Source: Candidatus Binatia bacterium
GTDB lineage: Bacteria > Desulfobacterota > Binatia > UBA9968
Reading direction: 5' to 3'
Length of the DNA: 38,078 nucleotides
Assembly (NCBI GenBank): GCA_025924215.1
Contig: JAICEJ010000004.1
Location: forward strand, 1 to 38,078
The notes under the pieces were generated by a model, which saw nothing but the letters and a program-made list of their open reading frames with translations, searched no databases and had not been told where the DNA came from. Position numbers and translations under genes: made by a program. Shown here piece by piece: positions 11,648-32,465 of this stretch (position 1 is its first letter; every line of letters starts with the position of its first letter).

Positions 11648-11807
11648 AGGCTCTTCTGCTCCTTTAAACCGCCGGCTGCGACCGCTGGCGAAAGCGCGCT
11701 CACAGAATAGCCTGAATCGTTAATTGGGTACACCGTTCTCTTGACACACAAGTCCGTTGAGGCGTAGACGGTTTGAGAGGAATCTAAAAAGAAAGGGATC
11801 AGTCATT

Positions 11808-12830
11808 ATGGCGCACAATTTTGAAGTCATTGATGCTGACGGTCACATCACTGAAGAGGATAACCAGCTCAAACAGTATATGGACGCGCGTTATCGCGAT
11901 CGGGCCGCTACACTGACGCCGCGCGATAGCTGGGACCGTTCGATCGGCGGAACATTAGGGACCCGCGCGAGAGATGCCAGAAGCTGGCTTGATGCGATGG
12001 ATCGGGGCGGTGTTTCGACCGCGGTGCTTTATCCCACCAATGGTCTCAGCGTCGGTTGGATCCGCGAGCCCGATGTGGCGGTGGCTTATTCCAAAGCATG
12101 GAACGACTTCGTTTCGGAAGAGTTCCAGAAGGTAAGCCCAAGGCTCAAGGCGGTTGCGCTGGTCCCTTTTCAGGACGTCCCTGAAGCGGTCAAAGAGCTG
12201 CGCCGCGCCGTCAACGAACTCAAGCTGCCCGGTGTCATGCTGCCGGCGGTGGGCTTAAGACTGCCGCTGGGGCACGAGAGCTTCTGGCCGATTTACCAGG
12301 AAGCGGAGAAGCTCGACTGCATGGTCGGAATTCATGCCACCGTGCGCGGTCCGCATTATTTTGCCGCCGACATGTTCGATCAGTTTATCGAAGTTCATAC
12401 GCTGTCTCATTCCTTTGCCCAAATGATGCAGTGCACGAGCATGATGTTCCGCGGCGTTTTTGATCAATTCCCCAAACTCCGGGTTGCTTATATGGAGGCG
12501 GGTTGTAGCTGGGCGCCGTACTGGTTCGGGCGAATGAACGAGGAGTGGGAAAAGCGGGGTCCGGTGGAAGCTCCCAAATGCAAGAAGAAGCCAACGGAAT
12601 ACTTCAAGGAAGGGCGGATCTACTTCCATGCCGAGGACTACGAGCCTTTGATTGGCGCTACCACTGAGGTGATATCGCACAACGTCATTTATTATGCTTC
12701 GGATTACCCGCATTGGGACACTGAATTTCCTGAAAACATCGATCACCTCGCCAGACGAAAAGATCTCAACGATGAGGCCAAGAAATGGCTTCTCGCTGAG
12801 ACCGCGAAAAAACTTTACAACCTCAGCTGA
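11808..12830 (+). CDS. Amidohydrolase family 2, type B
   Basis: A 340-residue COG2159 hydrolase. The likely metal or catalytic set is D11-x-H13 (VIDADGHITE), H176 (GIHATVRG), E230 (AYMEAGCSW) and D299 (YASDYPHWD). It shares length, order and many segments with the enzyme at 17220-18239 (YDRNLGGTLG-like SIGGTLG, EEWEKRG, CKKKPTEY and the closing KLYNLS), so both are type B. I place the start at the ATG at 11808, after AAAGGGA; an upstream ATG at 11757 adds a basic, unconserved 17 residues. A hydroxyacid dehydrogenase starts 10 bp after its stop, so the two are almost certainly cotranscribed. Substrate unknown. Confidence 0.9.
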   Translation: MAHNFEVIDADGHITEEDNQLKQYMDARYRDRAATLTPRDSWDRSIGGTLGTRARDARSWLDAMDRGGVSTAVLYPTNGLSVGWIREPDVAVAYSKAWNDFVSEEFQKVSPRLKAVALVPFQDVPEAVKELRRAVNELKLPGVMLPAVGLRLPLGHESFWPIYQEAEKLDCMVGIHATVRGPHYFAADMFDQFIEVHTLSHSFAQMMQCTSMMFRGVFDQFPKLRVAYMEAGCSWAPYWFGRMNEEWEKRGPVEAPKCKKKPTEYFKEGRIYFHAEDYEPLIGATTEVISHNVIYYASDYPHWDTEFPENIDHLARRKDLNDEAKKWLLAETAKKLYNLS

Positions 12831-12840
12831 GACCCGATCT

Positions 12841-13866
12841 ATGGCAACAAGACGTAAAGTTTGCTTTACCGGTCCGACACGGCTCAAAGTCGCCGAAGAA
12901 ATTCTGCGCGACGCCGGTTGTGAACTGGTGATGGGGAAAAACCAGGACGACTTCCGCGAGTACAAATACCCCCGGCGCGAGCTGGTCGAATTGATTGGCG
13001 ACTCCGCGGTGGTATTTCCCTCGGGCCGCGATATCATCGGCGGCGAGATTCTCGATTCCTGCGCCAACCTCCAAGCCGTCGTAAAGTCGAGCATCGGCAT
13101 AGAAACCGTTGATGTCGATGCAGCCACCGACCTCGGCATTCTCTGCTGCAACAGCCCGACACCAGAAAATTACCTGGGGGTTGCCGAAGCTACGGTCGGA
13201 TTGATGGTGATGCTTTTCAAGCGCCTGAAGTTCAACGAAGCTTTGCTGCGCCATGGCGGTTGGAAGGAGCCGCAGAACCGCGGCATGCTGATGATGGGCC
13301 GAACCATCGGTATCATCGGCGTCGGCCGCATCGGCCGTAACGTCGTTAAACGGCTGAGCGGCTGGGATCTGAAGTTTCTCGGTTACGATCCCTATGTCGA
13401 TCAGGAAACAGTGGCGCCTCTCGGCATCAAGATGGTCTCACTGGAAGAGTTGCTCGGACAATCGGATCTGGTGACGATTCATGTGGTTCTCACTCGAGAA
13501 ACGCGCAAGATGATCCAGTTAGCGCAGCTCAAGATGATGAAGAAGACCGCGTACATCGTCAACACTTCCCGTGGTCAAGTGTTCAACGAAGCGGATCTGG
13601 CACAAGCCCTTAATGAAGGGATCATCGCGGGAGCGGCGTTGGATGTTTTTGATGAAGAACCGACGCCGATGAACAATCCCCTGCGCCAGGTCGACCCCAC
13701 CAAGTTGACGATGACGCCGCACATCATCGGCAACAATCCGGGCTCTCTGGAAGCGGGTCAGCGGCTTGCCGCGCGCAGCATTCTTTCGATTCTCGACGGC
13801 AAGGCGCCTGACACGGTAGTGAATCCCAAAGCGATCCCACTCTGGAAAGAGCGCTTTTGGTCGTGA
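12841..13866 (+). CDS. D-2-hydroxyacid dehydrogenase family protein
   Basis: A 341-residue NAD(P)-dependent dehydrogenase of the D-isomer-specific 2-hydroxyacid family (phosphoglycerate, glyoxylate and formate dehydrogenase relatives). The Rossmann motif is G160-x-G162-x2-G165 (IIGVGRIGRN). The catalytic trio is R244 (NTSRGQVF), E273 (DVFDEEP) and H294 (TPHIIGN). It would interconvert a 2-hydroxyacid and a 2-oxoacid in the cytoplasm. I chose the ATG at 12841: a longer frame reaching back to 12694 overlaps the amidohydrolase and has no homology-like sequence. It follows the type B amidohydrolase after 10 bp, which suggests it handles an upstream or downstream acid of the same pathway. Specificity is not readable. 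Confidence 0.92.
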   Translation: MATRRKVCFTGPTRLKVAEEILRDAGCELVMGKNQDDFREYKYPRRELVELIGDSAVVFPSGRDIIGGEILDSCANLQAVVKSSIGIETVDVDAATDLGILCCNSPTPENYLGVAEATVGLMVMLFKRLKFNEALLRHGGWKEPQNRGMLMMGRTIGIIGVGRIGRNVVKRLSGWDLKFLGYDPYVDQETVAPLGIKMVSLEELLGQSDLVTIHVVLTRETRKMIQLAQLKMMKKTAYIVNTSRGQVFNEADLAQALNEGIIAGAALDVFDEEPTPMNNPLRQVDPTKLTMTPHIIGNNPGSLEAGQRLAARSILSILDGKAPDTVVNPKAIPLWKERFWS

Positions 13867-14000: not shown

Positions 14001-15020
14001 ATGAGAGAAAGCAAACTATTGATCCTCGCATTGGTTCTTGTAGCGCTGCTAGGTCCAGGCGAAATTCCCGCGCGCGGCGCTTCCGCTCCTGATCAAATGG
14101 TCGGTATTCACTCCTCGCGAGTCATGTCCCAGTCGCTCCCCTGGATGGCGCAGGAAGCCGGGCTATTTAAGAAATACAATCTCGATTTCAACTTGGTATT
14201 TATTTCATCTTCGAGCATTGTCACCGCAGCCCTGCTCGGCGGCGACGCCGAGATGACGGTCACCGGCGGCGTTGGCAATGTCAATGCTTACGTGCGCGGT
14301 TCCACCGATGTGGTCTTCATCGGCGCCATCAAGAACGTTATGACCCAAACCATCGTCGCCGGCGGCAATATCAAGAGACCGGAAGACTTGAAGGGCAAGA
14401 GAATCGGCGTGAGCCGCATCGGCGGCAATTCCCATTACTTCACCGTCCAAGCGCTGCGCAAATACAACATGGATCCGAACCGCGATGTTTCGTTCATGCA
14501 AACCGGCGGCGATCCGGAGACCTTTGCGGCACTGATGAGCGGCTCGCTTGAAGTCGCCAATTTGACTCCGCCCACCGATGCGCTTGCGATCTCGCGCGGC
14601 TATCACTACGTTATTTATGGTCCCGATCTGAAGATTCCTTACGCTGCCACGGCTTTCGTAACCAAACGTTCGGTGATCGCAAAGCGGCCGCAGGTGGTCG
14701 GAAATTTTATGCGTGCAATGGCGGAAACGGCGAAGATCATGCACACCGACCGGGAGTTTGTTTACAAAGTACTGGGCAAGTACCTGCGTATTACCGATAG
14801 AAGCGTGCTCGATTCTGCTTACAATGCCGAGATCAAAGCGCTCGAGCCGCGACTCGCGATCAAGACCGAGGCGTTGCAGGCGATTCTCGACGAAGTAGCC
14901 CAAACCGATCCACGGGCAAAGAAAGTCAAACCGCAAGAACTCATCGACAGTCGCTACCTGGACGAAATGGACAAAAGCGGATTTATGGATCAACTTTGGG
15001 GGAAGAAGAAGGAGCTATGA
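14001..15020 (+). CDS. NMT1/THI5-like periplasmic binding protein (orphan, copy 1)
   Basis: A 339-residue solute-binding protein of the SsuA/THI5 fold, with a Sec signal peptide ending near ARGASA and no lipobox Cys. Family marks: SLPWMAQEAGLFKKYNLDF, the LLGGDAEMTVTGG strand, the VIAGG-like IVAGGNIKRPEDLKGKRIG hinge segment and YAATAFVTKRSVI. GGAGAG precedes the ATG by about 9 bases. It should bind a small organic ligand in the periplasm for an ABC importer, but no ATPase or permease is adjacent. It is one of three close paralogues; the second begins on its stop codon (ATGA overlap), the third is at 20185-21162. Ligand unknown; the THI5 name does not imply thiamine precursors. Confidence 0.9.
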   Translation: MRESKLLILALVLVALLGPGEIPARGASAPDQMVGIHSSRVMSQSLPWMAQEAGLFKKYNLDFNLVFISSSSIVTAALLGGDAEMTVTGGVGNVNAYVRGSTDVVFIGAIKNVMTQTIVAGGNIKRPEDLKGKRIGVSRIGGNSHYFTVQALRKYNMDPNRDVSFMQTGGDPETFAALMSGSLEVANLTPPTDALAISRGYHYVIYGPDLKIPYAATAFVTKRSVIAKRPQVVGNFMRAMAETAKIMHTDREFVYKVLGKYLRITDRSVLDSAYNAEIKALEPRLAIKTEALQAILDEVAQTDPRAKKVKPQELIDSRYLDEMDKSGFMDQLWGKKKEL

Positions 15021-16012
15021 TGCGAAATATTTTTCCCACGATTTACTTTCTGCTTCTCGCGCCGGTTTTGACTCATGCCGCTTCGGCCCCGGACAAGCTG
15101 GTGGGTATCCACTCTGCGCGAGTGATGTCACAGTCTTTGCCGTGGATGGCGGAGGAGGCCGGGTTGTTCAAGAAACACAATATCGACTTCAATTTGGTAT
15201 TTATTTCTTCGTCCAGCATCGTCACAGCGGCCTTGCTCGGCGGTGATGCCGAGATGACTCTGACCGGTGGTATCGGCAACGTCATCGCCTACGTCCGCGG
15301 TTCCACAGATGTGGTTTTCGTCGGCGGGGTAAAAAATGTCATGACCCAGAGTCTGGTCGCAGGCGGAGCTCTTAAAAGACCCGAGGATCTCAAAGGGAAA
15401 AGAATCGCGGTCAGCCGCATCGGCGGCAATACTCATTATTTTACCATCCAGGCTTTGCGCCGGCACGGCCTCGAACCCAATCGTGATTTTAGCTTTATGC
15501 AAAGCGGCGGCGATCCGGAGGCGCTCGCGGCTTTGATGACCGGCAACGTTGAGGCAGCCGCGCTGACGCCGCCGTCCGACGCCAAAGCTTTGGCCAACGG
15601 TTTTAAATACGTACTCTACGGACCCGATTTGAAGATCCCATATGCGGCGACCGCGTTCGTAACCAGACGCTCGGTGATTGCCAAACGGCCACAGATGGTC
15701 GGAAATTTTATGCGCGCGATGGCTGAAGCGGCCAAGATTATGCACAGTGACCGCGAGTTCGTTTACAAAGTGCTCGGTAAGTATCTACGGGTCACTGAAA
15801 AATCAATTCTCGACGCCGCCTACAACGCCGAAATCAAGGCGCTGGAACCGCGGCTGGCGATAAAGACCGAAGCGCTGCAGGCAACGCTCGAGGAAATCGC
15901 GGTCACCGACCCGCGCGCGAAAAAGGTCACGGCGCAAGAGTTGATCGATAGCCGTTATCTCGATGAAATGGAAAAGAGCGGATTTTTTGATCAGCTATGG
16001 GCTAAAAAATAG
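15017..16012 (+). CDS. NMT1/THI5-like periplasmic binding protein (orphan, copy 2)
   Basis: A 331-residue paralogue of the preceding gene, largely alignable without gaps: SARVMSQSLPWMAEEAGLFK, LLGGDAEMTLTGG, DLKIPYAATAFVTRR and KVLGKYLRVT are near-identical. The signal peptide ends near THAASA. The ATG at 15017 overlaps the previous stop (ATGA); an immediately following ATG at 15020 has slightly better spacing from GGAG and may be the true start. An amidohydrolase begins 14 bp after its stop, so binding proteins and hydrolases share a transcript. The tandem arrangement implies recent duplication. Whether the two copies bind different ligands cannot be told by eye. Confidence 0.9.
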   Translation: MMRNIFPTIYFLLLAPVLTHAASAPDKLVGIHSARVMSQSLPWMAEEAGLFKKHNIDFNLVFISSSSIVTAALLGGDAEMTLTGGIGNVIAYVRGSTDVVFVGGVKNVMTQSLVAGGALKRPEDLKGKRIAVSRIGGNTHYFTIQALRRHGLEPNRDFSFMQSGGDPEALAALMTGNVEAAALTPPSDAKALANGFKYVLYGPDLKIPYAATAFVTRRSVIAKRPQMVGNFMRAMAEAAKIMHSDREFVYKVLGKYLRVTEKSILDAAYNAEIKALEPRLAIKTEALQATLEEIAVTDPRAKKVTAQELIDSRYLDEMEKSGFFDQLWAKK

Positions 16013-16026
16013 TTCGAGGAGGAGCC

Positions 16027-17187
16027 ATGGAACAAACCATTATCTCGTCAGATTCTCATGTGATCGAGGTTCCGGACTTGTGGGAGAAGGGTGTGCCCTC
16101 ATCGTTTACCGAGCGGGCGCCGAAAGCTTTTTTCGATCAAAAGCGCGATGCCTGGATGTTCGGCTCGGCTGAGGTGCCGGTGCAAGCAGTGGGCGGCTTG
16201 TTCATGGCCGGCCAACGCCCCGACCAGGTAGAGAGTTTCCGCCGCGCCGGATTTTCGGTGGCTCGCCCCGGCGGCTGGGATCCGCTCGAGCGGATGAAGG
16301 ATATGGTCACAGATGGCGTCGCGGCCGAAGTGCTTTATCCCAGCCTCGGTCTCGGTTTGTTCTGTCTCGAGGATGCCGCGCTTCAGGAGGCGCTGTTTAG
16401 AACCTATAACGATTGGCTGATCGAATACTGTCAAAAAGTGCCGGACCGGCTCTTTGGCATCGCGCTTATTTCCATGTTCGATATCGAACACGCCATTGCC
16501 GAAATGAAGCGCTGCAAGGAGCAGGGGATTGTCGGTACGATGATCTGGCAAGTGCCGCATCCCAAGTTGCCTTTTGCCTCCGAGCATTACGAACGATTTT
16601 GGGCGGCGTCCCAGGATCTCGAATTGCCGGTTCATCTGCACATTTTGACCGGCTTCGGCGACAGCATGCATCGCCAGACCAGCCACGGCATCAAGCGTTA
16701 TCGTATCGGCGTACAACAGACTCGCGAAATCGAGGACGCTCTGTTCGACATCATTTTCACCGGTGTATTGGAACGTTATCCTCGGCTTAAAGTAGTGTCG
16801 GTCGAGAATGAAATCGGCTGGATGCCGTTCTGGCTCGGTCAATGCGACAAAGCGTTCAAGCGGCATCGACATTCGGAGAGGCTAACCATCGATAAGCTGC
16901 CCAGCGAATATTTTCGCCGCCAGGTTTATGCGACATTCTTTAACGATCCGGTCGGCGCTAAACTGTTCTCATGGTGGGGCTGCGATAACTTCATGTGGTC
17001 CAACGACTACCCACATCAAAATTCGACCTGGCCCAACTCGCGGGATGTGATTGCGCGTGATATGGGTCATCTTGATCCTGCGGACCGGGAGAAGCTGCTC
17101 AATAGCAACGTCACCGAGCTGTATCAAATCAAGGTAGCGGCTTCGTTGCCCGAGACCCATGTGGCCGCGGCGGCAGCGCACGCCTGA
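16027..17187 (+). CDS. Amidohydrolase family 2, type A (second copy)
   Basis: A 386-residue COG2159 hydrolase. The likely active-site set is D9-x-H11 (SSDSHVIEVPDLWEKG), H205 (VHLHILTG), E260 (VSVENEIGW) and D327 (MWSNDYPHQ). It is clearly related to the type A enzyme at 7625-8683 but carries about 35 extra residues after position 35 (AFFDQKRDAWMFG region) and an Ala-rich C-terminal tail. A strong GAGGAG lies just before the ATG. It sits 14 bp after a binding-protein gene and 32 bp before a type B amidohydrolase. The A-B adjacency suggests two successive or cooperating steps. Substrate unknown. Confidence 0.9.
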   Translation: MEQTIISSDSHVIEVPDLWEKGVPSSFTERAPKAFFDQKRDAWMFGSAEVPVQAVGGLFMAGQRPDQVESFRRAGFSVARPGGWDPLERMKDMVTDGVAAEVLYPSLGLGLFCLEDAALQEALFRTYNDWLIEYCQKVPDRLFGIALISMFDIEHAIAEMKRCKEQGIVGTMIWQVPHPKLPFASEHYERFWAASQDLELPVHLHILTGFGDSMHRQTSHGIKRYRIGVQQTREIEDALFDIIFTGVLERYPRLKVVSVENEIGWMPFWLGQCDKAFKRHRHSERLTIDKLPSEYFRRQVYATFFNDPVGAKLFSWWGCDNFMWSNDYPHQNSTWPNSRDVIARDMGHLDPADREKLLNSNVTELYQIKVAASLPETHVAAAAAHA

Positions 17188-17219: not shown

Positions 17220-18239
17220 ATGGAATTGAGAGAAGCAGTTAAAGTTTTAGATTCGGACGCTCATGCGCGCGATCTCGATGAAAATCTTCGGCCATATCTG
17301 GACGAACCCTACCGCAGCCAGCGAGCGCCGTTTTTTCTGCGAGAAACCTACGACCGCAATCTAGGCGGAACATTGGGCTTTTCGGGGGCGAAACACGAAG
17401 AACGTCTGGCAGCCATGGACACGCAGCAAATTGATAGCGCCGTCATGTATCCGACGAGCGGCTTGGGGATCGGCGCCATCCGCGATCCGGCGTTCAATGC
17501 GGCGCTATGCCGGGCTTATAACGATTACATTTCGGACTACTGCAAGGCGTCGCCTCGCCTCAAGGCAGTGGCCAATCTACCGGTCAACAATCCCGCCGAA
17601 GCGGCCAAGGAGCTCAACCGCGCGGTCACCAAACTCGGGCTATGCGGCGGCATGTTGGCGGCGCAGTCCCATATGAAAAATCTTGGCAGCCCCGAGTTCT
17701 ACCCGCTCTATGAAGAAGCGCAGCGGCTCAATACGCCGATTGCGATTCACGCCTTCGGCGGCGATGAGCCCGGCACCGAGATTTTCGATAAATTCATCTG
17801 CCTGCACACCACCGGCCATCCCTTTCCGGTGCTACGCCAGCTCACCGCGATAGTCTTCGGCGGCATCCCCGAACTGTTTCCCAACCTGAAGATCGGCTAC
17901 CTCGAAGTGGGGTGCGGCTGGATACCCTATTGGGCGGAACGGATGGATGAAGAATGGGAAAAGCGCGGCAAGGCCGAAGCTCCGCTGTGCAAGAAAAAAC
18001 CGAGCGAGTATTTGACCAACGGCAACAGCTATTACGGTTGCGAGCCGGAAGAGAAGATGATGGGCTACGTTGTCAACGAGATCGGCTCGAAGACTTTGAT
18101 GTATGCCTCCGATTACCCGCACTGGGATATGAGTTGGCCGGAATCGGCGACCATTGTGTGGAACCGTGAGGACCTGTCGGTGGAAGCTAAAAAGGATATT
18201 CTGCTTCATAACGCCAAGCGATTTTACAATCTCTCGTAG
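17220..18239 (+). CDS. Amidohydrolase family 2, type B (second copy)
   Basis: A 339-residue COG2159 hydrolase with D13-x-H15 (VLDSDAHARD), H177 (IAIHAFGG), E229 (GYLEVGCGW) and D298 (YASDYPHWD). It pairs with the type B enzyme at 11808-12830 through GGTLGFSG, EEWEKRG, CKKKPSEYL and the final FYNLS. AGAGGAG precedes the ATG by 6 bases. It ends the 11.8-18.2 kb run; a hairpin with a short U-rich tail follows. Because a type A gene lies directly upstream, the pair may act on one compound, and sequential action or a mixed oligomer are both possible (inference). Confidence 0.9.
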   Translation: MELREAVKVLDSDAHARDLDENLRPYLDEPYRSQRAPFFLRETYDRNLGGTLGFSGAKHEERLAAMDTQQIDSAVMYPTSGLGIGAIRDPAFNAALCRAYNDYISDYCKASPRLKAVANLPVNNPAEAAKELNRAVTKLGLCGGMLAAQSHMKNLGSPEFYPLYEEAQRLNTPIAIHAFGGDEPGTEIFDKFICLHTTGHPFPVLRQLTAIVFGGIPELFPNLKIGYLEVGCGWIPYWAERMDEEWEKRGKAEAPLCKKKPSEYLTNGNSYYGCEPEEKMMGYVVNEIGSKTLMYASDYPHWDMSWPESATIVWNREDLSVEAKKDILLHNAKRFYNLS

Positions 18240-18322: not shown

Positions 18323-20056
18323 ATGATTCAAACTAAAGGGTTAACCGGGGCGCAATCCATGCTGCGCGTCCTCGCAAGAATGGGCGTGGAAAAAATCTTT
18401 GCGTCGCCGGGATCAGAATGGTCGCCGGTGTGGGAGGCGCTGGCGGAACCGGGCGTCGAAGGCATGCCGCAGTATCTGAGCACGCGCCACGAAGAAGTAG
18501 CCGTCGGCATGGCAAGCGGATACGCGAAGGCCACCGGCAAACTGCCGGCGGTCATGATCCACACCACCGTGGGCTCGCTGCACGCGACCATGGGGATGCG
18601 TGGCGCGATTCGCGAACAGGTGCCAATGGTAGTCTTCAGTGGTGAATCGATTGGCTATGGCGAAGACGAAGGACCGGATCCGGGAGGGCAGTGGTTGGGT
18701 CATCTCTCCAACATTGGAGGCCCGGCGAAGATGGTCGAGCAAACGGTGAAATGGAGTTTCGGCGTTAACAATAAAGCGATTTTACCGGCGACGATTCAAC
18801 GCGCCTGCCAGCTCGCGATGGCGGCGCCGAAGGGGCCGACGTTCGTCTCTTTGTCAATGGAGCATCTCTTCGACAAGATGATCAAAGACGTTCCCTCGGT
18901 TGGCTTCGCGCCTGGAGCGACCGCCGATCCGAAGGGCATCGAGGAGCTTGCGAAGCTGCTGGCCGGCGCAAAAAACCCGGTCATTGTCACCGAAGATTCG
19001 GGGCGCACGGCAAAGTCTGTGCATTGCCTGGTCGAGATCGCCGAGCTCTTGGGGTGTGTGGTGGTCGAAACCCGCAGCACGGGCGCGCTTAATTTTCCAC
19101 GCACTCATCCGCTGCACAGCGGCTATGATCCACGCAAAGCATTAGCGGGCGCGGACGCGATTCTCTTGCTGGCGGTAATCGCGCCGTGGCATCCGGCTTC
19201 GGCGACGCCGTCGCCGGGAGCGACCGTGGCGATTTTGGATGAGAATCCGTTGCGGCACGATATGCCTTACTATGGCTATCAGGCCGATCTCTGTTTGACC
19301 GGTGAGATCGAAAGCTCACTCGAGCAGCTCTTGGCCGCATTGAAGAGTAAAGTCTCCGCCAGCGATTCGTCGCGTAAGCAGCGCGCTGAGGAGATCGGCA
19401 AGAAAAACAACGCCCAAAGGAAAGCCTGGCGCGACGAGGCGCTGGCCCTTGCCGATCAGAAACCGATGGACACTCGCTGGGTAGCGCATGAAATCAGCCA
19501 GGTCTTGCCGGCGGATGCCATGGTCGTGGAAGAGACGATCACGCATCGTTTAGCTATTCATCGTTATTTCGATGCACTCAAGCCAGGTTCGTTTTTCGCA
19601 GGCTGCGTCGGTGGCCTGGGCACTGGCCTCTCGACGGCGCTGGGCGTAAAATCGGCCAATCCCAAACGTCCTGTGGTGTGCGTGATCGGTGACGGATCTT
19701 TCAACTACGATCCGGCGCCAGCGGTGTACGGCGCTGCCCAAGAGCACAACTTGCCGTTCCTGACCGTCATGTTCAACAACCAGGGTTATCTGTCGCAGAA
19801 ATCCGGTATCCCGAAGTACTATCCTGAAGGCTGGGCGGTGAAATCGAAGAATTTCTCCGGCCTGCACATCGTTCCGTGCCCGGAGTATGCGCAGATCATC
19901 AAAGCTTTCGACGGCTATGGTGAAAAGGTCGAAGATCCCGGCGAAGTGCGAAAAGCAGTCGAGCGTGGCCTGCGCGCCGTGGCCGGCGGCCAGGTCGCCT
20001 TGCTCGATATTCGACTGAAGCCGGTAGAGCAGATCGTCGAGCGCGGCGAGGGTTAA
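18323..20056 (+). CDS. Thiamine-pyrophosphate-dependent enzyme (acetolactate synthase/decarboxylase-like)
   Basis: A 577-residue, three-domain TPP enzyme. The N-terminal Pyr domain carries the activating Glu (E57, in STRHEEVAVGMASGYA). A central domain of about residues 200-345 follows, and the C-terminal PP domain has the TPP/Mg motif G456-D457-G458 through N485-N486 (FNNQGYL). The full length and intact motifs fit acetolactate synthase, benzoylformate or phosphonopyruvate decarboxylase relatives, which act on 2-oxoacids in the cytoplasm. AAAGGAAG precedes the ATG. In context, a 2-oxoacid could come from the hydroxyacid dehydrogenase upstream (inference). No small regulatory subunit is present, which argues against a biosynthetic acetolactate synthase. 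Substrate unknown. Confidence 0.88.
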   Translation: MIQTKGLTGAQSMLRVLARMGVEKIFASPGSEWSPVWEALAEPGVEGMPQYLSTRHEEVAVGMASGYAKATGKLPAVMIHTTVGSLHATMGMRGAIREQVPMVVFSGESIGYGEDEGPDPGGQWLGHLSNIGGPAKMVEQTVKWSFGVNNKAILPATIQRACQLAMAAPKGPTFVSLSMEHLFDKMIKDVPSVGFAPGATADPKGIEELAKLLAGAKNPVIVTEDSGRTAKSVHCLVEIAELLGCVVVETRSTGALNFPRTHPLHSGYDPRKALAGADAILLLAVIAPWHPASATPSPGATVAILDENPLRHDMPYYGYQADLCLTGEIESSLEQLLAALKSKVSASDSSRKQRAEEIGKKNNAQRKAWRDEALALADQKPMDTRWVAHEISQVLPADAMVVEETITHRLAIHRYFDALKPGSFFAGCVGGLGTGLSTALGVKSANPKRPVVCVIGDGSFNYDPAPAVYGAAQEHNLPFLTVMFNNQGYLSQKSGIPKYYPEGWAVKSKNFSGLHIVPCPEYAQIIKAFDGYGEKVEDPGEVRKAVERGLRAVAGGQVALLDIRLKPVEQIVERGEG

Positions 20057-20184: not shown

Positions 20185-21162
20185 ATGAATAGCCGACTTC
20201 CGATTTTCATCGTCGCGCTCTGCCTAACTACTGCAGCTCGAGCCCAAGCAGCCGATAAACTCGTTGGTATCCATTCGGCAAGAGTTCTTTCTCAGTCGAT
20301 GCCTTGGATCGCCCAAGATGCCGGTCTCTTTAAAAAACACAATCTGGACTTTCCCATGGTTTTCATCCCCGCGTCCTCCGCGGTGACCGCCGCCATGTTG
20401 GGTGGCGACGGTGAGATAGCGCTCACCGGAGGCGAGGGTATGATTCGCGCCAACTTGACTGGTGGCAGCGACTTCGTTTTTATCGGAGCGGTAAAAAACA
20501 TCTTGACTCATAGCATAATGGGCAAGCCGGAGCTCAAGAGGCCCGAGGATCTGAAAGGGAAAAAAGTCGGAGTAACCCGGCTCGGCGGCAATCCTCATTA
20601 TTTCGCGATTCAGGCCCTGCGATTGAAAGGATTGGATCCAAGTAAGGATGTCATTTTCATTCAAACCGGCGGCGCGCCGGAAACGCTGGCGGCCTTGAAA
20701 TCGGGAGTGATCGACGCGGCGGCCTTGACCGCGCCCACTGACACCCAAGCGACCGCCATGGGTTACAACTTCGTCATCTTCGGACCCGATCTGAAAATTC
20801 CCTATGCGGCAACCGTTTTCGTGACTCGTCGTGCTGTCATTGCCAAGCGTTCCGCGGTAGTTGGTCAATTCATGCGCGCGATGGCGGAGGCGTCCAGGAT
20901 TCTCCACAACGACAGAGAGTTCGTCTATAAGGTTCTTGGCAAACAGCTCCGGCTCACCGACCGAAAGATTTTGGACGCTGCCTATAATGGCGAGATAAAG
21001 GCGCTCGAACCGCGGCTATCTCTCCGCGCCGAGCCGTATCAGGCGATTCTGGACGACATTGCCAAGACCGATGGGCGCGCCAAGAAAGTTAAAGCTGAGG
21101 AGATGATGGATAGTCGTTATATCGATGAGCTAGAAAAAAGCGGTGCTTTCGATAAGTCGTAG
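20185..21162 (+). CDS. NMT1/THI5-like periplasmic binding protein (orphan, copy 3)
   Basis: A 325-residue binding protein with a Sec signal peptide ending near ARAQA. It is clearly homologous to copies at 14001 and 15017 (KLVGIHSARVLSQSMPWIA, FGPDLKIPYAAT, KVLGKQLRLTDRKI, DSRYIDELEKSG) but more divergent, with PASSAVTAAMLGGDGEIAL replacing the SSSSIVTAALLGGDAEM of the pair. No ribosome binding site is obvious. A TenA-like diiron protein starts 21 bp after its stop, which links uptake to that enzyme. No permease or ATPase is adjacent. Ligand unknown. Confidence 0.9.
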   Translation: MNSRLPIFIVALCLTTAARAQAADKLVGIHSARVLSQSMPWIAQDAGLFKKHNLDFPMVFIPASSAVTAAMLGGDGEIALTGGEGMIRANLTGGSDFVFIGAVKNILTHSIMGKPELKRPEDLKGKKVGVTRLGGNPHYFAIQALRLKGLDPSKDVIFIQTGGAPETLAALKSGVIDAAALTAPTDTQATAMGYNFVIFGPDLKIPYAATVFVTRRAVIAKRSAVVGQFMRAMAEASRILHNDREFVYKVLGKQLRLTDRKILDAAYNGEIKALEPRLSLRAEPYQAILDDIAKTDGRAKKVKAEEMMDSRYIDELEKSGAFDKS

Positions 21163-21183
21163 ACTAAACCTTGCGAGGATTAT

Positions 21184-21894
21184 ATGAGCAGCAGCTTTCA
21201 TGATCGATTGGTCGCCACCCGCGATCGCAAGCACAGCAAAAATCATCCGTTTTTCGAGCTATGGGCGCAGGGCAAGCTGACCCGGGAGCAAACCGCCTTT
21301 TACTGCACGCAACACTATCATTTTGTCGGCGAGTTTTTGAACTGGCTTGCGTATCAGGGCTCGCAGATTCGCGAGCGCGATGTAAAAAATTATTTATTCG
21401 AAAACCTCGGGGACGAAGAGAATCCCGACGATCGTCATTTGGACATGCTCAAGGATTACGTCGCAGCTAGCGGCGTGAATCGCGACAGCGTGGAAAGCTC
21501 GATCGTTCTTGCCGCCACTGAGGGTTTGCAGAATTGGGGCTGGCGCATGGTCTATCAAAGGCGTTGGCAGGCCGCGCTGGCCGGGATGTTCATCGGCCTT
21601 GAGTCTCAGTTTTTAGATATCTGCAAAAAGATCGTTCCCGCTCTGCACAAACATTACGGTTTTGCGCCGCATGCGCGGGAGATCCGATTTTTTGAAGAGC
21701 ATATCTACGCCGACGAGATCCATGGCTCCAAAGGATTTGCCATCGTCGAAAAATATTGCAACACGCCTGAGCTCCAGGATCTGGCAATCCAGATGGTGGA
21801 AGAGGCGACCATCCGGCGCTGGCGTTATATGAACGATATTTATTGGTACGCGCTCCACGGTAAACAGGACGACACGCCGAGCCTGCCAGGCTAG
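21184..21894 (+). CDS. TenA/PqqC-fold protein with diiron-oxidase ligand set (HDO-like)
   Basis: A 236-residue all-helical protein that automatic tools would call TenA/thiaminase II or PqqC-like. The sequence instead shows a complete six-ligand pattern of heme-oxygenase-like diiron oxidases (HDO; CADD, UndA and SznF are known members): E78-x6-H85 in DEENPDDRH, E140 in FIGLESQF, and H173-x3-D177-x2-H180 in EEHIYADEIHG. The order and spacing match the CADD-type arrangement. No Cys lies near residue 135, where TenA has its nucleophile. HDO enzymes use O2 for decarboxylation, N-oxygenation, C-C cleavage or desaturation. It follows binding protein copy 3 by 21 bp, with GAGGA before the ATG. It is likely a soluble oxidase acting on that ligand or a derivative; the substrate is inference. 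Confidence 0.82.
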   Translation: MSSSFHDRLVATRDRKHSKNHPFFELWAQGKLTREQTAFYCTQHYHFVGEFLNWLAYQGSQIRERDVKNYLFENLGDEENPDDRHLDMLKDYVAASGVNRDSVESSIVLAATEGLQNWGWRMVYQRRWQAALAGMFIGLESQFLDICKKIVPALHKHYGFAPHAREIRFFEEHIYADEIHGSKGFAIVEKYCNTPELQDLAIQMVEEATIRRWRYMNDIYWYALHGKQDDTPSLPG

Positions 21895-22164: not shown

Positions 22165-23610
22165 ATGAAAATACGCATCGATGGCGGTGTCGTCGTGGGT
22201 TGGTCCGGCACCGGCCATGAAATCATTCCGGACGGTTCAGTACTCATAGAGAACGATACGATTCGCTCCGTGGGGAAGGATAAGTCTCAAGCCGTCGACA
22301 AAGTGATCGACGCCTCCGGGAAGATTGTTTCTCCAGGGTTCGTCAACCTTCACGTTCATTCGCAGTTGAACGTCGGCGATTATTTGCTCGCCGATGTGAC
22401 CAGGAAGGATTATCTAACCGCCAATTGGTTTGTCTTCGGCGCTCCTTTGAAGGAAAAAATTACTCCGCCGCCCGCGCCAGCAGTGGCAATCGGCCGGAAA
22501 TACGCGCTGTTTAGCGCCTTGAAGAATGGCGCGACCACTGTCCTCGATCCTGGCGGTGGGCCCGGCGCTTTGGACGAGTACGTCGCCATCGTCGGCCAAC
22601 AGGGAGGACGGGTTTTTTTCAGCCCGCCGTACCGCAGCAGCGATATCTTTACCGATGCGCAAGGCCGTCTTTACTATGAGGACCGTGAAGATAAGGGGCG
22701 TCCCGGACTCGAAAGAGCCGTTGCTTTTATCAAGCAATACCACGGCGCCCATAACGGCAGGATTCAAGGAATATTAAATCCTGCGCAAGCCGAAACCTGC
22801 GAGCCCGCGCTGCTCAAGGAAACTGCCGCGGCCGCGAAAGAGCTCGATGTCCCGATTCACCTTCATGCCGGTGGCAACGCGCGCGAGTTTCTGCACATTC
22901 TGAATACCTACCGAAAGCCCGTGGTGGAATATCTCGCCGGGACAGGAATTCTCGGGCCGCGAACGACCCTCGGCCACATGGCGATCACTGGCGGCCATTC
23001 GCGCATCGATTACCCGCGCGGCGACGAATTGAAACTGATCGCGGAGTCCGGCGCAACCGTCGGCCATTGCCCGCACAAATGCGCCAAAATGGCTTTTGCG
23101 ATGGAATCCTTCGATCAGTACCTGGCCGCCGGCGTCAGGATCGGTCTTGGCACCGATACCTATCCGCTCGATATAATCGCCGAGATGCGTTACGCCTCGT
23201 TGATTTCGCGCCTGGTCGACCGCGACGCTTCCGGCGCGCGACCGGCCGATTGTTTCAACGCAGCGACGATTGGCGGCGCCGATGCTCTGGGCCGCAAAGA
23301 TCTGGGCCGGCTTGCTGCCGGCGCCAAAGCCGACGTGGTAATTATCAATCTGCGCACCACCCGATACGGGCCATGGCGTGATCCGATCAACGCGTTAGTC
23401 GAGTACGGCAGCGGCGCCGATGTTGAAACGGTGATTGTCGATGGTGAAATCGTCATTGACAATGGCCGGTCGACGCGCATCGATGAAGATGAGCTATTTG
23501 CTCAAGCAAACGCAGGCGCGCAGCGCGCGTGGGACGGCTGGGTAACTCGTGACTGGAACGGCAGGAGCACTGAGGACATCGTCCCGCCTGCTTTTCCAAC
23601 CAGGCGTTAG
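22165..23610 (+). CDS. Amidohydrolase family 1 (deaminase/chlorohydrolase-like)
   Basis: A 481-residue cytoplasmic amidohydrolase of the cytosine-deaminase/MtaD/TrzN-like branch. It has the N-terminal composite-barrel segment (DGGVVVGWSGTG, IIPDGSVLIEN), then H63-x-H65 (NLHVHSQ), H232/H234 (IHLHAGG), H271 (LGHMAIT), the HCPHKCAKMAF loop, D331 (GLGTDTYPLD) and the C-terminal barrel (GAKADVVIIN, VETVIVDGEIV). In many deaminases the third-ligand strand reads HxAE; here the Glu position is Gly, so the reaction may differ from classical deamination. AAGGATCGAG stands before the ATG. It closes the catabolic island and is followed by the second full copy of the interspersed element. Substrate unknown. 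Confidence 0.88.
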   Translation: MKIRIDGGVVVGWSGTGHEIIPDGSVLIENDTIRSVGKDKSQAVDKVIDASGKIVSPGFVNLHVHSQLNVGDYLLADVTRKDYLTANWFVFGAPLKEKITPPPAPAVAIGRKYALFSALKNGATTVLDPGGGPGALDEYVAIVGQQGGRVFFSPPYRSSDIFTDAQGRLYYEDREDKGRPGLERAVAFIKQYHGAHNGRIQGILNPAQAETCEPALLKETAAAAKELDVPIHLHAGGNAREFLHILNTYRKPVVEYLAGTGILGPRTTLGHMAITGGHSRIDYPRGDELKLIAESGATVGHCPHKCAKMAFAMESFDQYLAAGVRIGLGTDTYPLDIIAEMRYASLISRLVDRDASGARPADCFNAATIGGADALGRKDLGRLAAGAKADVVIINLRTTRYGPWRDPINALVEYGSGADVETVIVDGEIVIDNGRSTRIDEDELFAQANAGAQRAWDGWVTRDWNGRSTEDIVPPAFPTRR

Positions 23611-28968: not shown

Positions 28969-29931
28969 ATGATTATTAGTCGGCGACATTTTCTTAGCAA
29001 AATCGTTATCGGCGTGGCGGCAGCGCCCTGGCTCGGCAATTTCAGCTGGGCGCAGACTAAAGGCAAGCTCGGTTACATGAAAATCGTCGATGTCGCGACG
29101 ATGTTCATGGCGATCGAGAAAGGATTTTTCAAGTCAGAAGGGTTGGAGCTCGAGACGGTGCCCATGGCAGGCGGTGCGGTGATCGTGCAAGGAGTTACCT
29201 CCGGCGATTTGCAGATCGGCTGGACCAACGTCATTTCGCTTTATCAAGCTTATGTGGAGGGATTCGATTTCAAGCTTGTGGCGCCTGGGGCGAGCAACGG
29301 CCGCGGCAAAAACGAGAGTCATGCCATTCTTGTGACTAAAGCGTCGCCGATTAAAAGCGCGAAAGATCTGGAGGGGAAAACCGTCGCCGTCAATACGCTT
29401 AACAATATCGTTCATCTGATGGCAATGGCTTGGATCGACAAGAACGGCGGCGCTTCGAATAAGGTTAAATTCGTCGAGGTGCCGTTTCCGCAAATGGAAG
29501 TGGCATTGAATGGCGGCAAGCTCGACGCCGTCAGCGTTCATGAGCCGTTTGCCACCGCCGCCATGGAAAAGGGCACGGCCCGAGTTCTCGCCCATCCCTG
29601 GGGCGACGTGCTCGCGCGGTTTCACATCGCCGGCTGGTTCGCTTCCGAGAAGTGGATACAGAAAAACAAGCCAATGACTCAGTCTTTCATTCGAGCTATC
29701 GCTCGGGGCGCCGAGGCCATTGAGGCCGATCCCGAAGCCAGCCGCGCTGCGATGATAAAATGGGCCGGATTGAATCCCGGTCTCGCCGACAAGATCGGCT
29801 TGCCCATTTTCGACAAAACATTATCGGAAAAAGATCTCCAGTCGACTATCGATCTGACCCACAAATATAAAATGATCTCCCGCGCCATCAAAGCACGGGA
29901 AGTCATCAGCGATGTGGCGCCTAAAGGTTAG
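28969..29931 (+). CDS. Tat-exported NMT1/SsuA-like binding protein
   Basis: A 320-residue periplasmic solute-binding protein. Unlike the three orphans, it begins with a twin-arginine signal (SRRHFLSK followed by a hydrophobic stretch and an Ala-Gln cleavage region, SWAQ), so it is probably folded or cofactor-loaded before export. Fold marks: FMAIEKGFFKSEGLELE, GGAVIVQGVTSGDLQIGW, AKDLEGKTVAVNTLNN and HEPFATAAMEKG. GGAGG lies about 7 bases before the ATG. It heads a complete importer (ATPase, two permeases) after a 201-bp gap. The NitT/TauT family imports nitrate, sulfonates, taurine or pyrimidine precursors; ligand unknown here. Confidence 0.92.
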   Translation: MIISRRHFLSKIVIGVAAAPWLGNFSWAQTKGKLGYMKIVDVATMFMAIEKGFFKSEGLELETVPMAGGAVIVQGVTSGDLQIGWTNVISLYQAYVEGFDFKLVAPGASNGRGKNESHAILVTKASPIKSAKDLEGKTVAVNTLNNIVHLMAMAWIDKNGGASNKVKFVEVPFPQMEVALNGGKLDAVSVHEPFATAAMEKGTARVLAHPWGDVLARFHIAGWFASEKWIQKNKPMTQSFIRAIARGAEAIEADPEASRAAMIKWAGLNPGLADKIGLPIFDKTLSEKDLQSTIDLTHKYKMISRAIKAREVISDVAPKG

Positions 29932-30132
29932 AAGATACGCAGGGAAACGGCCCGGCCGCCGTGACAGTTTCCCGGTTACCGGATAAGTGTCGGGAAGGGA
30001 ACTTGCCATCGCATCGCTATGAAGAATTGACGTTTACCGAAGGCCGAACATTTCGATGGCGTGGTCGGTTTACCGGTGATTGTTTATTCGGCATTCTGCT
30101 ATCAGCTTGATGGTTAGCTGTCACTCGCTTTC

Positions 30133-30912
30133 ATGCCTCTTCTAGAGATCCAGAACCTTGCCAAGACCTATCGGCAGATGGGCGGTGAGACCACCCTGGC
30201 TATCGGAGAGATCTCATGCAAGGTCGAGACGGGCGAATTTGTCAGCTTCGTCGGGCCCTCAGGTTGCGGTAAAACCACTTTGTTGATGTCGATTGCGGGA
30301 CTGATCGCTCCCAGCGCCGGGCAAGTTGTTATTCACGGAAAAGAGGTGAGTGGGCCACCTCCGAACCTGGTCTTGGTTTTCCAGGACTTTAATAAATCTC
30401 TGTTCGCGTGGCGATCCGTCCTTGGAAACGTTCGCTTCGGTTTAGAGGCGCGGGGAAATCATTCCCGCGAAGGCGACGGCAAAGCTCGTTCGCTGATCGA
30501 TCTTGTCGGCCTCAAAGGTTTCGAGAATCATTATCCCTGGGAGCTTTCGGGCGGAATGCAGCAGCGGGTCGCCATTGCCCGCGCGCTTGCTTACGAGCCC
30601 GAAGTTTTGCTGATGGACGAGCCCTTTGGCTCTCTTGACGCGCTAACACGTCTGGAGTTGGAGGATACGCTTTTAAAGCTTTGGGAGGAGTTGGGCACGA
30701 CAATTTTGTTTATCACGCATGACATCGAAGAGGCCATCTACCTTTCGGACCGAATTTTGTTGCTCAGCCAACGGCCATCGCGGATTATCGAGGAACTGCC
30801 AATAAATTTTTCCAGGCCGCGCAATCAAATGTTAACCCGGGCACAACCGGGCTTTATGGAAATCAGAAATCGTATTTACCAACGTATCCACAACGAAAGC
30901 GCGCTGTCGTGA
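30133..30912 (+). CDS. ABC importer ATPase (NitT/TauT/SsuB family)
   Basis: A 259-residue nucleotide-binding subunit. Walker A is at 41-49 (GPSGCGKTT), the signature LSGGMQQR at 138-145, Walker B with the catalytic Glu at 159-163 (LLMDE), followed by PFGSLD and a switch His in ITHDIEEA. It powers import with the two downstream permeases. The stop overlaps the GTG start of the first permease (GTGA), which implies translational coupling. The ribosome binding site is weak. It is shorter than SsuB relatives with C-terminal regulatory domains. Confidence 0.95.
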   Translation: MPLLEIQNLAKTYRQMGGETTLAIGEISCKVETGEFVSFVGPSGCGKTTLLMSIAGLIAPSAGQVVIHGKEVSGPPPNLVLVFQDFNKSLFAWRSVLGNVRFGLEARGNHSREGDGKARSLIDLVGLKGFENHYPWELSGGMQQRVAIARALAYEPEVLLMDEPFGSLDALTRLELEDTLLKLWEELGTTILFITHDIEEAIYLSDRILLLSQRPSRIIEELPINFSRPRNQMLTRAQPGFMEIRNRIYQRIHNESALS

Positions 30913-31688
30913 AAGTTGGCAGAGCCTTTAATTGGCCGGGGTGGATCGCTTTTGCTCTCGTTTTGCTCATCTGGGAATTCGGCTCCCGCAACAATCCGGC
31001 GCTGCAACCCTACCTTCCCCCCGTGAGCCGAATTTTTAGCAGCTTGGGCGAGCTAATTCTCTCGGGCCGGATTGTCAGTCATCTGATGATCACGCTCAGC
31101 CGCTTTCTTCAGAGTTATTTGCTTGCCGCTTCGATAGCGGTAATCCTGGGAACGGTCCTGGGATATTTTCGTTTGGCGCACAACCTGTTTGAGGCGGTGA
31201 TCGAGTTCTTGCGCCCCATGCCTTCCGTGGCGATCATTCCCGTGGCGGTTTTATTGCTCGGCATTAGCGACGCGATGATTATTGCGGTCACGGTTTACGC
31301 CAGCCTCTGGCCAATTCTGATCAATACCATCGATGGCGTCCGGCACCTTGAACGGACGTTGATCGATACCGGCAGAACCTTTGGTCTTAATCGGCGAAAA
31401 ATTCTTTGGCTGGTCGTCCTGCCGGGGGCAGCGCCCTACATCATCACCGGTCTGCGTATCAGTCTGTCGATTGCCTTGATCTTGGTCACTACTGCCGAGA
31501 TGATTGCCGGCAGCAAAGGGCTGGGGTTTTTCATCCTTGACGAAGAGCGCTCCATGAATAGCGGCAACATGTACGCTGGTGTGATTCTAGTTTCAGCCCT
31601 GGGATATCTGCTCAACCGATTGTTTGTCCTTGGCGAAGGCTGGGCGATGAATTGGCGCCGCGGCATGCTTGCTCGAGAGGCTCTCTGA
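30909..31688 (+). CDS. ABC importer permease, subunit 1 (SsuC/TauC-like)
   Basis: A 259-residue inner-membrane permease with about six helices. Its EAA-type ATPase-coupling loop lies around LERTLIDTGRTFGLNRRKI, followed by LPGAAPYIITGLRISLSIA. It starts at GTG, overlapping the ATPase stop. It is clearly homologous to the next gene (GTxLGxxx, LRPxPxVxIPVAxLxxG, GRTFGL versus ARTFGL), so the channel is likely a heterodimer of two related permeases rather than the homodimer typical of SsuC. Confidence 0.93.
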   Translation: MKVGRAFNWPGWIAFALVLLIWEFGSRNNPALQPYLPPVSRIFSSLGELILSGRIVSHLMITLSRFLQSYLLAASIAVILGTVLGYFRLAHNLFEAVIEFLRPMPSVAIIPVAVLLLGISDAMIIAVTVYASLWPILINTIDGVRHLERTLIDTGRTFGLNRRKILWLVVLPGAAPYIITGLRISLSIALILVTTAEMIAGSKGLGFFILDEERSMNSGNMYAGVILVSALGYLLNRLFVLGEGWAMNWRRGMLAREAL

Positions 31689-31691
31689 CAG

Positions 31692-32465
31692 ATGCGCGAA
31701 TCCAAAGTTAACGGCTTACTGTTCTTTCTCGGCCTACTGATCGTTTGGGAATTGCTTGCGCAAGGCGGATTGATCAATCCCTTGATCGTGCCGCCGCTGA
31801 GCAGGATTTTCCGAGTTTTCTCCGATTTAGTCTGGTCGGGTCAGATTCCGCTACAAGTCGCGGCCAGCATGAAACGAGCGGCGGCAGGGTATGTTATGGC
31901 TGCTCTGGTGTTTATCCCCCTGGGAATTCTGATGGGTCTCTCGCAGACTGTTTATCGCCTCTTTGAAGTCATCGTCGAGATGCTCCGGCCTGTGCCGCCG
32001 CCTGTGATGATTCCGGTCGCGATGCTGTTCTTCGGCTTGGAAGACGAGATGAAGATTTTTGTCATCTTCTTTTCCTGCGCCTGGCCGATTCTGCTCAATA
32101 CTCTGGACGGCGCGCGTAATGTCGATCGGGTGCTGTTGAACACGGCCCGTACGTTTGGATTATCACAGTGGAGGATCATCTGGAATGTTATTCTGCCGGC
32201 AGCCTCGCCGCAGATTGTTACGGGATTGAAGGTCAGCCTGCCGATCACCCTGATCCTGGTGGTCATCTCTGAGATGGTCGGAAGCACCGACGGGATCGGC
32301 TACTTTATTCTCGATTCACAGCGTCGATTTAGAGTAGCGCAGATGTATGCGGGGATGCTTACCTTGGCGATTCTCGGTTACACGCTCAATCAACTCTTCA
32401 ATCTGCTCTACAAGCTAGTCATGCCGTGGCATGTAGGATTGATGAGGATGAAAGATGGTGCGTAA
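31692..32465 (+). CDS. ABC importer permease, subunit 2 (SsuC/TauC-like)
   Basis: A 257-residue permease paralogue of the previous gene. It starts three bases after its stop and ends the operon. About six helices and an EAA-like loop (VDRVLLNTARTFGLSQWRI, LPAASPQIVTGLKVSLPI) are visible. Its position as second of two permeases suggests a heterodimeric channel. A stem-loop lies 5 bp past the stop. The operon converges on the FAH-family gene. Confidence 0.93.
   Translation: MRESKVNGLLFFLGLLIVWELLAQGGLINPLIVPPLSRIFRVFSDLVWSGQIPLQVAASMKRAAAGYVMAALVFIPLGILMGLSQTVYRLFEVIVEMLRPVPPPVMIPVAMLFFGLEDEMKIFVIFFSCAWPILLNTLDGARNVDRVLLNTARTFGLSQWRIIWNVILPAASPQIVTGLKVSLPITLILVVISEMVGSTDGIGYFILDSQRRFRVAQMYAGMLTLAILGYTLNQLFNLLYKLVMPWHVGLMRMKDGA

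Follow-up and report, generated by a model that had tools for sequence, protein, structure and literature searches.

A heme-oxygenase-like diiron oxidase candidate of an uncharacterised subfamily, encoded among uptake and hydrolase genes in Candidatus Binatia

Heme-oxygenase-like diiron oxidases (HDOs) have more than 10,000 predicted members, of which about a dozen have been characterised, and those studied make specialised molecules (PMC13108848). Most characterised dimetal HDOs use two Fe(II) ions and O2 to form a peroxo-diferric species, and several of them turn over only with an external reductant (PMC11363339, PMC13108848). CADD (CT610) from Chlamydia trachomatis and NePabS from Nitrosomonas europaea are self-sacrificing p-aminobenzoate (pABA) synthases, each giving up one Tyr and one Lys of its own, and two further tyrosines of CADD are tied to Mn/Fe selection (PMC11965152). 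Against this background, we analyzed an HDO-like gene from Candidatus Binatia. The window, meaning the whole 38,078-nucleotide stretch of DNA analyzed here, belongs to a metagenome-assembled genome of 745 contigs (G000). An initial annotation of one open reading frame in it had proposed a TenA-like protein that is really a diiron oxidase, naming six residues in the ligand order of HDOs. The gene and the sites discussed below are as follows; the correspondences to CADD and TenA come from alignment.

21175..21179, + strand: GAGGA, a probable ribosome-binding site read from the sequence, ending 4 nt before the ATG of the HDO gene
21184..21894, + strand: HDO gene, PF14518 Haem_oxygenas_2, 236 aa, open ORF
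21253..21255, + strand: codon of F24, aligned with the CADD sacrificial Tyr27
21415..21417, + strand: codon of ligand E78 (CADD E81)
21436..21438, + strand: codon of ligand H85 (CADD H88)
21601..21603, + strand: codon of ligand E140 (CADD E142); the preceding L139 is the TenA Cys position
21631..21633, + strand: codon of I150, aligned with the CADD amino-donor Lys152
21700..21702, + strand: codon of ligand H173 (CADD H174)
21712..21714, + strand: codon of ligand D177 (CADD D178)
21721..21723, + strand: codon of ligand H180 (CADD H181)

All six residues named by the initial annotation are present under its numbering, and each aligns with the CADD ligand listed beside it above. In 31 aligned homologues, whose identity ranges from 87% to 20%, no column besides these six and G97 is invariant; the motif is therefore not a chance arrangement. 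The order E-H-E-H-(D/E)-H on the core helices is common to the window protein and to UndA, BesC, SznF, AetD, HrmI and PolF, fellow members of the superfamily whose sequence identity to it is low (13–20% where given) and which are biosynthetic, whereas the window HDO lies among uptake and hydrolase genes. N-oxygenases of the SznF type (3H/4C) add a seventh ligand, a Glu on an auxiliary helix. Because a six-ligand motif of this kind occurs in about 85% of HDO groups (PMC11363339), it marks membership and not novelty.

Profile, sequence and structure comparisons agreed with this placement. In Pfam, PF14518 matched at 8.6e-26 (91.2 bits against a curated cut-off of 28.9), and PF03070 TENA_THI-4 gave a weaker match at 9.3e-9. 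The best NCBIfam profile was that of CADD (TIGR04305), at 95.9 bits and below its cut-off of 200; the PqqC equivalog TIGR02111 (31.9 bits against 240) and the TenA profile TIGR04306 (16.2 against 130) fell far short of theirs. The top PDB sequence matches were a 4-aminobenzoate synthase, 9pj4 (3.6e-22), which is probably NePabS, and then CADD, 1rcw (2.3e-18); BesC and PqqC matched weakly. An AlphaFold2 model built from the alignment of the 31 homologues reached a mean pLDDT of 94.8 and a pTM of 0.90. Compared with solved structures, it came nearest to CADD (Z 27.7, 1.7 Å over 214 residues), with Z 27.2 for the metal-loaded CADD structures 8va9 and 8vag, followed by PqqC (Z 25.4), TenA (Z about 22–23.6), HrmI, UndA, BesC and PolF. 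PqqC, at about 15–19% sequence identity, has the same fold and works without a metal (PMC11363339), in contrast to the window protein with its six ligand positions. Since CADD, PqqC, TenA and their relatives have one common fold, HDO and TenA are told apart by the ligands and by the top rank of CADD. The six ligands would converge in the predicted structure, judging from the sequence register and from how closely the model superposes on CADD (1.7 Å), metal-loaded forms included. Two of the checks suggested with the initial annotation, a profile search against HDO and TenA families and a structure prediction compared with CADD and UndA, both favored the HDO assignment, and sequence and model together strongly support membership and a putative dimetal site. 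The window protein is an HDO of an uncharacterised subfamily: by sequence a further member of a known superfamily, in an unusual setting.

That setting consists of the following genes around the HDO gene.

11757..12830, + strand: Amidohydro_2 protein AH2a, by profile match
12694..13866, + strand: D-2-hydroxyacid dehydrogenase family protein; the true start is probably further in, as orthologous matches cover about 343 aa
14001..15020, + strand: NMT1-type solute-binding protein SBPa, by profile match
14996..16012, + strand: NMT1-type solute-binding protein SBPb, by profile match
16027..17187, + strand: Amidohydro_2 protein AH2b, closest solved relatives PtmU3 and DitZ
17220..18239, + strand: Amidohydro_2 protein AH2c, by profile match
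18323..20056, + strand: ThDP enzyme, PRK08327-like, nearest solved structures benzoylformate decarboxylases
20185..21162, + strand: NMT1/SsuA-type solute-binding protein SBPc, 21 bp upstream of the HDO gene
22165..23610, + strand: Amidohydro_1 protein of the chlorohydrolase/deaminase type, PRK06151-like, just below cut-off

The hydrolases that the initial annotation had placed around the HDO gene are thus confirmed as amidohydrolases, and the last of them resembles 8-oxoguanine deaminase, atrazine chlorohydrolase and triazine hydrolases. In its alignment the ThDP enzyme apparently keeps the Ser and His that we take to be those of the benzoylformate decarboxylase active site. No reductase or ferredoxin was apparent among the annotated cluster genes. 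Elsewhere in the window, positions 28969–32465 hold genes for all components of an NMT1-type ABC transporter (binding protein, ATPase and two permeases), with which the cluster's orphan binding proteins might work.

We then compared the window locus with thirteen further orthologous loci, 71–88% identical, from related genomes and one Acidobacteria-labelled record. The ThDP gene accompanies the HDO gene in 11 of these 14 loci (G000, G002, G003, G004, G006, G011, G012, G013, G017, G021 and G023; the G003 locus is spread over two contigs and the G012 contig is short), and most of the 11 retain the Amidohydro_2 and binding-protein genes where the contig is long enough. The constant partners are the ThDP enzyme and two Amidohydro_2 genes. 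Coupling to the binding protein immediately upstream, as initially proposed, stands only in part: the gene is there and ends at 21162, but it is a less conserved neighbor, and besides the window only G012 and G018 among the loci read have a binding protein directly upstream, so that it was discarded as a constant partner. In the other three loci the HDO occurs without the ThDP/amidohydrolase cluster, beside a binding protein only (G018) or alone (G033 and L013), so those partners are not a strict requirement for its reaction. Although conserved, the module can thus come apart. The last of these loci (L013:10001-10717), a close ortholog at 79% identity, lies in a genome bin labelled Acidobacteria and reflects either transfer or a mislabelled bin.

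The window gene is one of many HDO genes in its genome. PF14518 genes number 21 in G000, 31 in G017 and 25–26 in G018, and the expansion to between 21 and 31 genes per genome also covers G011, G021 and G013; more distant families of the class, as sampled, have 0–6 per genome, and 2 of 14 control genomes contain any. In G000, all six ligand positions are kept in the 20 PF14518 proteins that could be read; the only deviations are two conservative substitutions, one protein having D for E and a different one E for D. Neighbors of these paralogs include NMT1-type binding proteins, Amidohydro_2 proteins, UbiD decarboxylases with two-cupin proteins, a 3-hydroxyanthranilate dioxygenase-like (3-HAO) protein, dienelactone hydrolase, a beta-eliminating lyase, putative cyclase and DHDPS-family proteins, and an HDO–enolase fusion beside a GH3 enzyme. 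In G018, a scored binding protein is found no more than 1.2 kb from 9 of the 26 HDOs, where random placement would give 3.3 (p about 0.0015); this count is a lower bound, as 150 of the 264–281 candidate NMT1/THI5-type binding proteins per genome (G000, G018) were scored. With binding proteins so numerous, some adjacency is expected by chance and the enrichment is modest. The same random-placement comparison revealed no enrichment of Amidohydro_2 genes (57 matches in G018) near HDOs, and Amidohydro_2 adjacency was dropped as a general HDO rule. New here are up to 31 HDO genes in these genomes, often beside binding proteins and catabolic genes.

Several of the other HDO loci are distinctive in themselves. 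At L083:431-2344 and L131:9162-11042, in two genera, an HDO domain is fused to an enolase-superfamily (MR_MLE) domain and a GH3-family gene follows directly; similarly long open frames occur in G002, G006 and G013. The array at L091:59-9278 runs binding protein, HDO, HDO, binding protein, HDO, HDO, two Amidohydro_2-like genes and another solute-binding protein. An HDO adjoins a two-cupin protein and a UbiD decarboxylase at L085 and L088, and accompanies 3-HAO-like and UbiD genes at L089; these neighbors suggest aromatic catabolism.

Taken together, we consider it probable that the window protein is an O2-dependent dimetal HDO oxidase or oxygenase, most likely Fe/Fe, working in a module for substrate uptake and breakdown. 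The catabolic part of this reading is drawn from context, including neighbors homologous to benzoylformate decarboxylase and triazine hydrolases. Alternatively, the gene could belong to a biosynthetic cluster whose binding proteins and amidohydrolases make or recycle a small molecule, as with known HDOs. The HDOs studied so far are biosynthetic (PMC13108848, PMC13232832), and a relative of the PtmU3-like amidohydrolase belongs to a natural-product pathway; however, the cluster genes scanned include no assembly-line, ligase or export genes and do include three binding proteins and four hydrolases, and the paralogs adjoin degradation-type genes, leaving biosynthesis an unlikely explanation, albeit the strongest competitor. 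A limited literature search found no description of a catabolic HDO, and the main Binatota genome paper makes no mention of HDOs, although both silences are weak evidence.

A role chiefly in protection or metal buffering has a precedent of sorts in DtpC of Acinetobacter, an HDO for which it is a possibility and which has a protective phenotype with unknown chemistry (PMC13232832). For the window protein we regard it as very improbable, given the conserved placement with metabolic enzymes and a family in which 104 of 236 positions are invariant and many polar residues are family-specific, suggesting a specific pocket.

A TenA-type thiaminase II acting in pyrimidine salvage with a ThiY-like binding protein would account for the PF03070 match, the similar overall helical fold and the NMT1/THI5-type binding protein that adjoins the HDO gene. 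Alignment with true TenA proteins of related genomes nevertheless bears out the initial claim that the TenA cysteine is missing: the Cys of the LPC-x-W motif is replaced by L139, the Glu of the RYEYLFW motif by W213, and the TenA sequences have a gap where the HxxxDxxH stretch lies, so that metal ligands stand in place of the Cys/Glu site. As related genomes encode a true TenA separately and the TenA profile score lies far below cut-off, we ruled out thiamine salvage and give this reading almost no credence.

Just as implausible is a divergent self-sacrificing pABA synthase, even though CADD and NePabS are the closest solved relatives by sequence and fold, with CADD matching in both fold and ligand register and NePabS having the same ligands. 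The places of the sacrificial Tyr27 and Lys152 of CADD are F24 and I150 in the window protein, and F24 and I/L/V150 in all orthologs readable at those two sites; Tyr25 and Lys159 of NePabS likewise have no equivalents. By contrast, seven homologues from other families of the same class (L036, L038-L041, L044 and L046) keep both Tyr and Lys and are likely true self-sacrificing pABA synthases; in the tree they group with CADD and NePabS (support 99/100), and the window protein falls outside. Together with a TIGR04305 score below cut-off, the loss of both residues and the tree position ruled out this identity. Lacking the sacrificial Tyr and Lys, the window protein should act on an external substrate. 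At the places of Tyr141 and Tyr170, the CADD tyrosines tied to Mn/Fe selection, it has L139 and F169; the Phe at the second position is as in NePabS, an Fe/Fe enzyme, and by this analogy we infer that an Fe/Fe site is favored.

Returning to the reading as an HDO of an uptake and breakdown module, two Fe(II) ions would be bound by E78/H85, a bridging E140 and H173/D177/H180. Reaction with O2 would give a peroxo-diferric intermediate that oxidizes a small external substrate, and the diferric product would have to be re-reduced by an electron donor. Periplasmic NMT1-type binding proteins would capture the compound, the HDO would carry out the oxidative step on the imported small molecule, and the ThDP decarboxylase-like enzyme, the 2-hydroxyacid dehydrogenase and the amidohydrolases would process its product. 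A particular order, in which the HDO hydroxylates a carboxylic acid, the dehydrogenase forms a 2-oxo acid, the ThDP enzyme decarboxylates it and hydrolysis follows, strikes us as doubtful.

On a broader scale, we tentatively raise the possibility, though would not favor it, that Binatia recruited HDOs to act as general catabolic oxygenases, fed by dedicated NMT1-type binding proteins, and multiplied them to as many as 31 per genome; the window cluster would then be one of many such modules, its HDO opening degradation by a reaction new to the superfamily. Conserved alongside uptake proteins and hydrolases, and belonging to a lineage whose genomes each carry 20–30 HDOs, the window HDO offers a route to the roles of the unstudied majority of the family, and the binding protein is a practical handle on the HDO substrate. 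Moreover, our results suggest that HDO radical chemistry also serves the breakdown of environmental compounds in uncultured bacteria.
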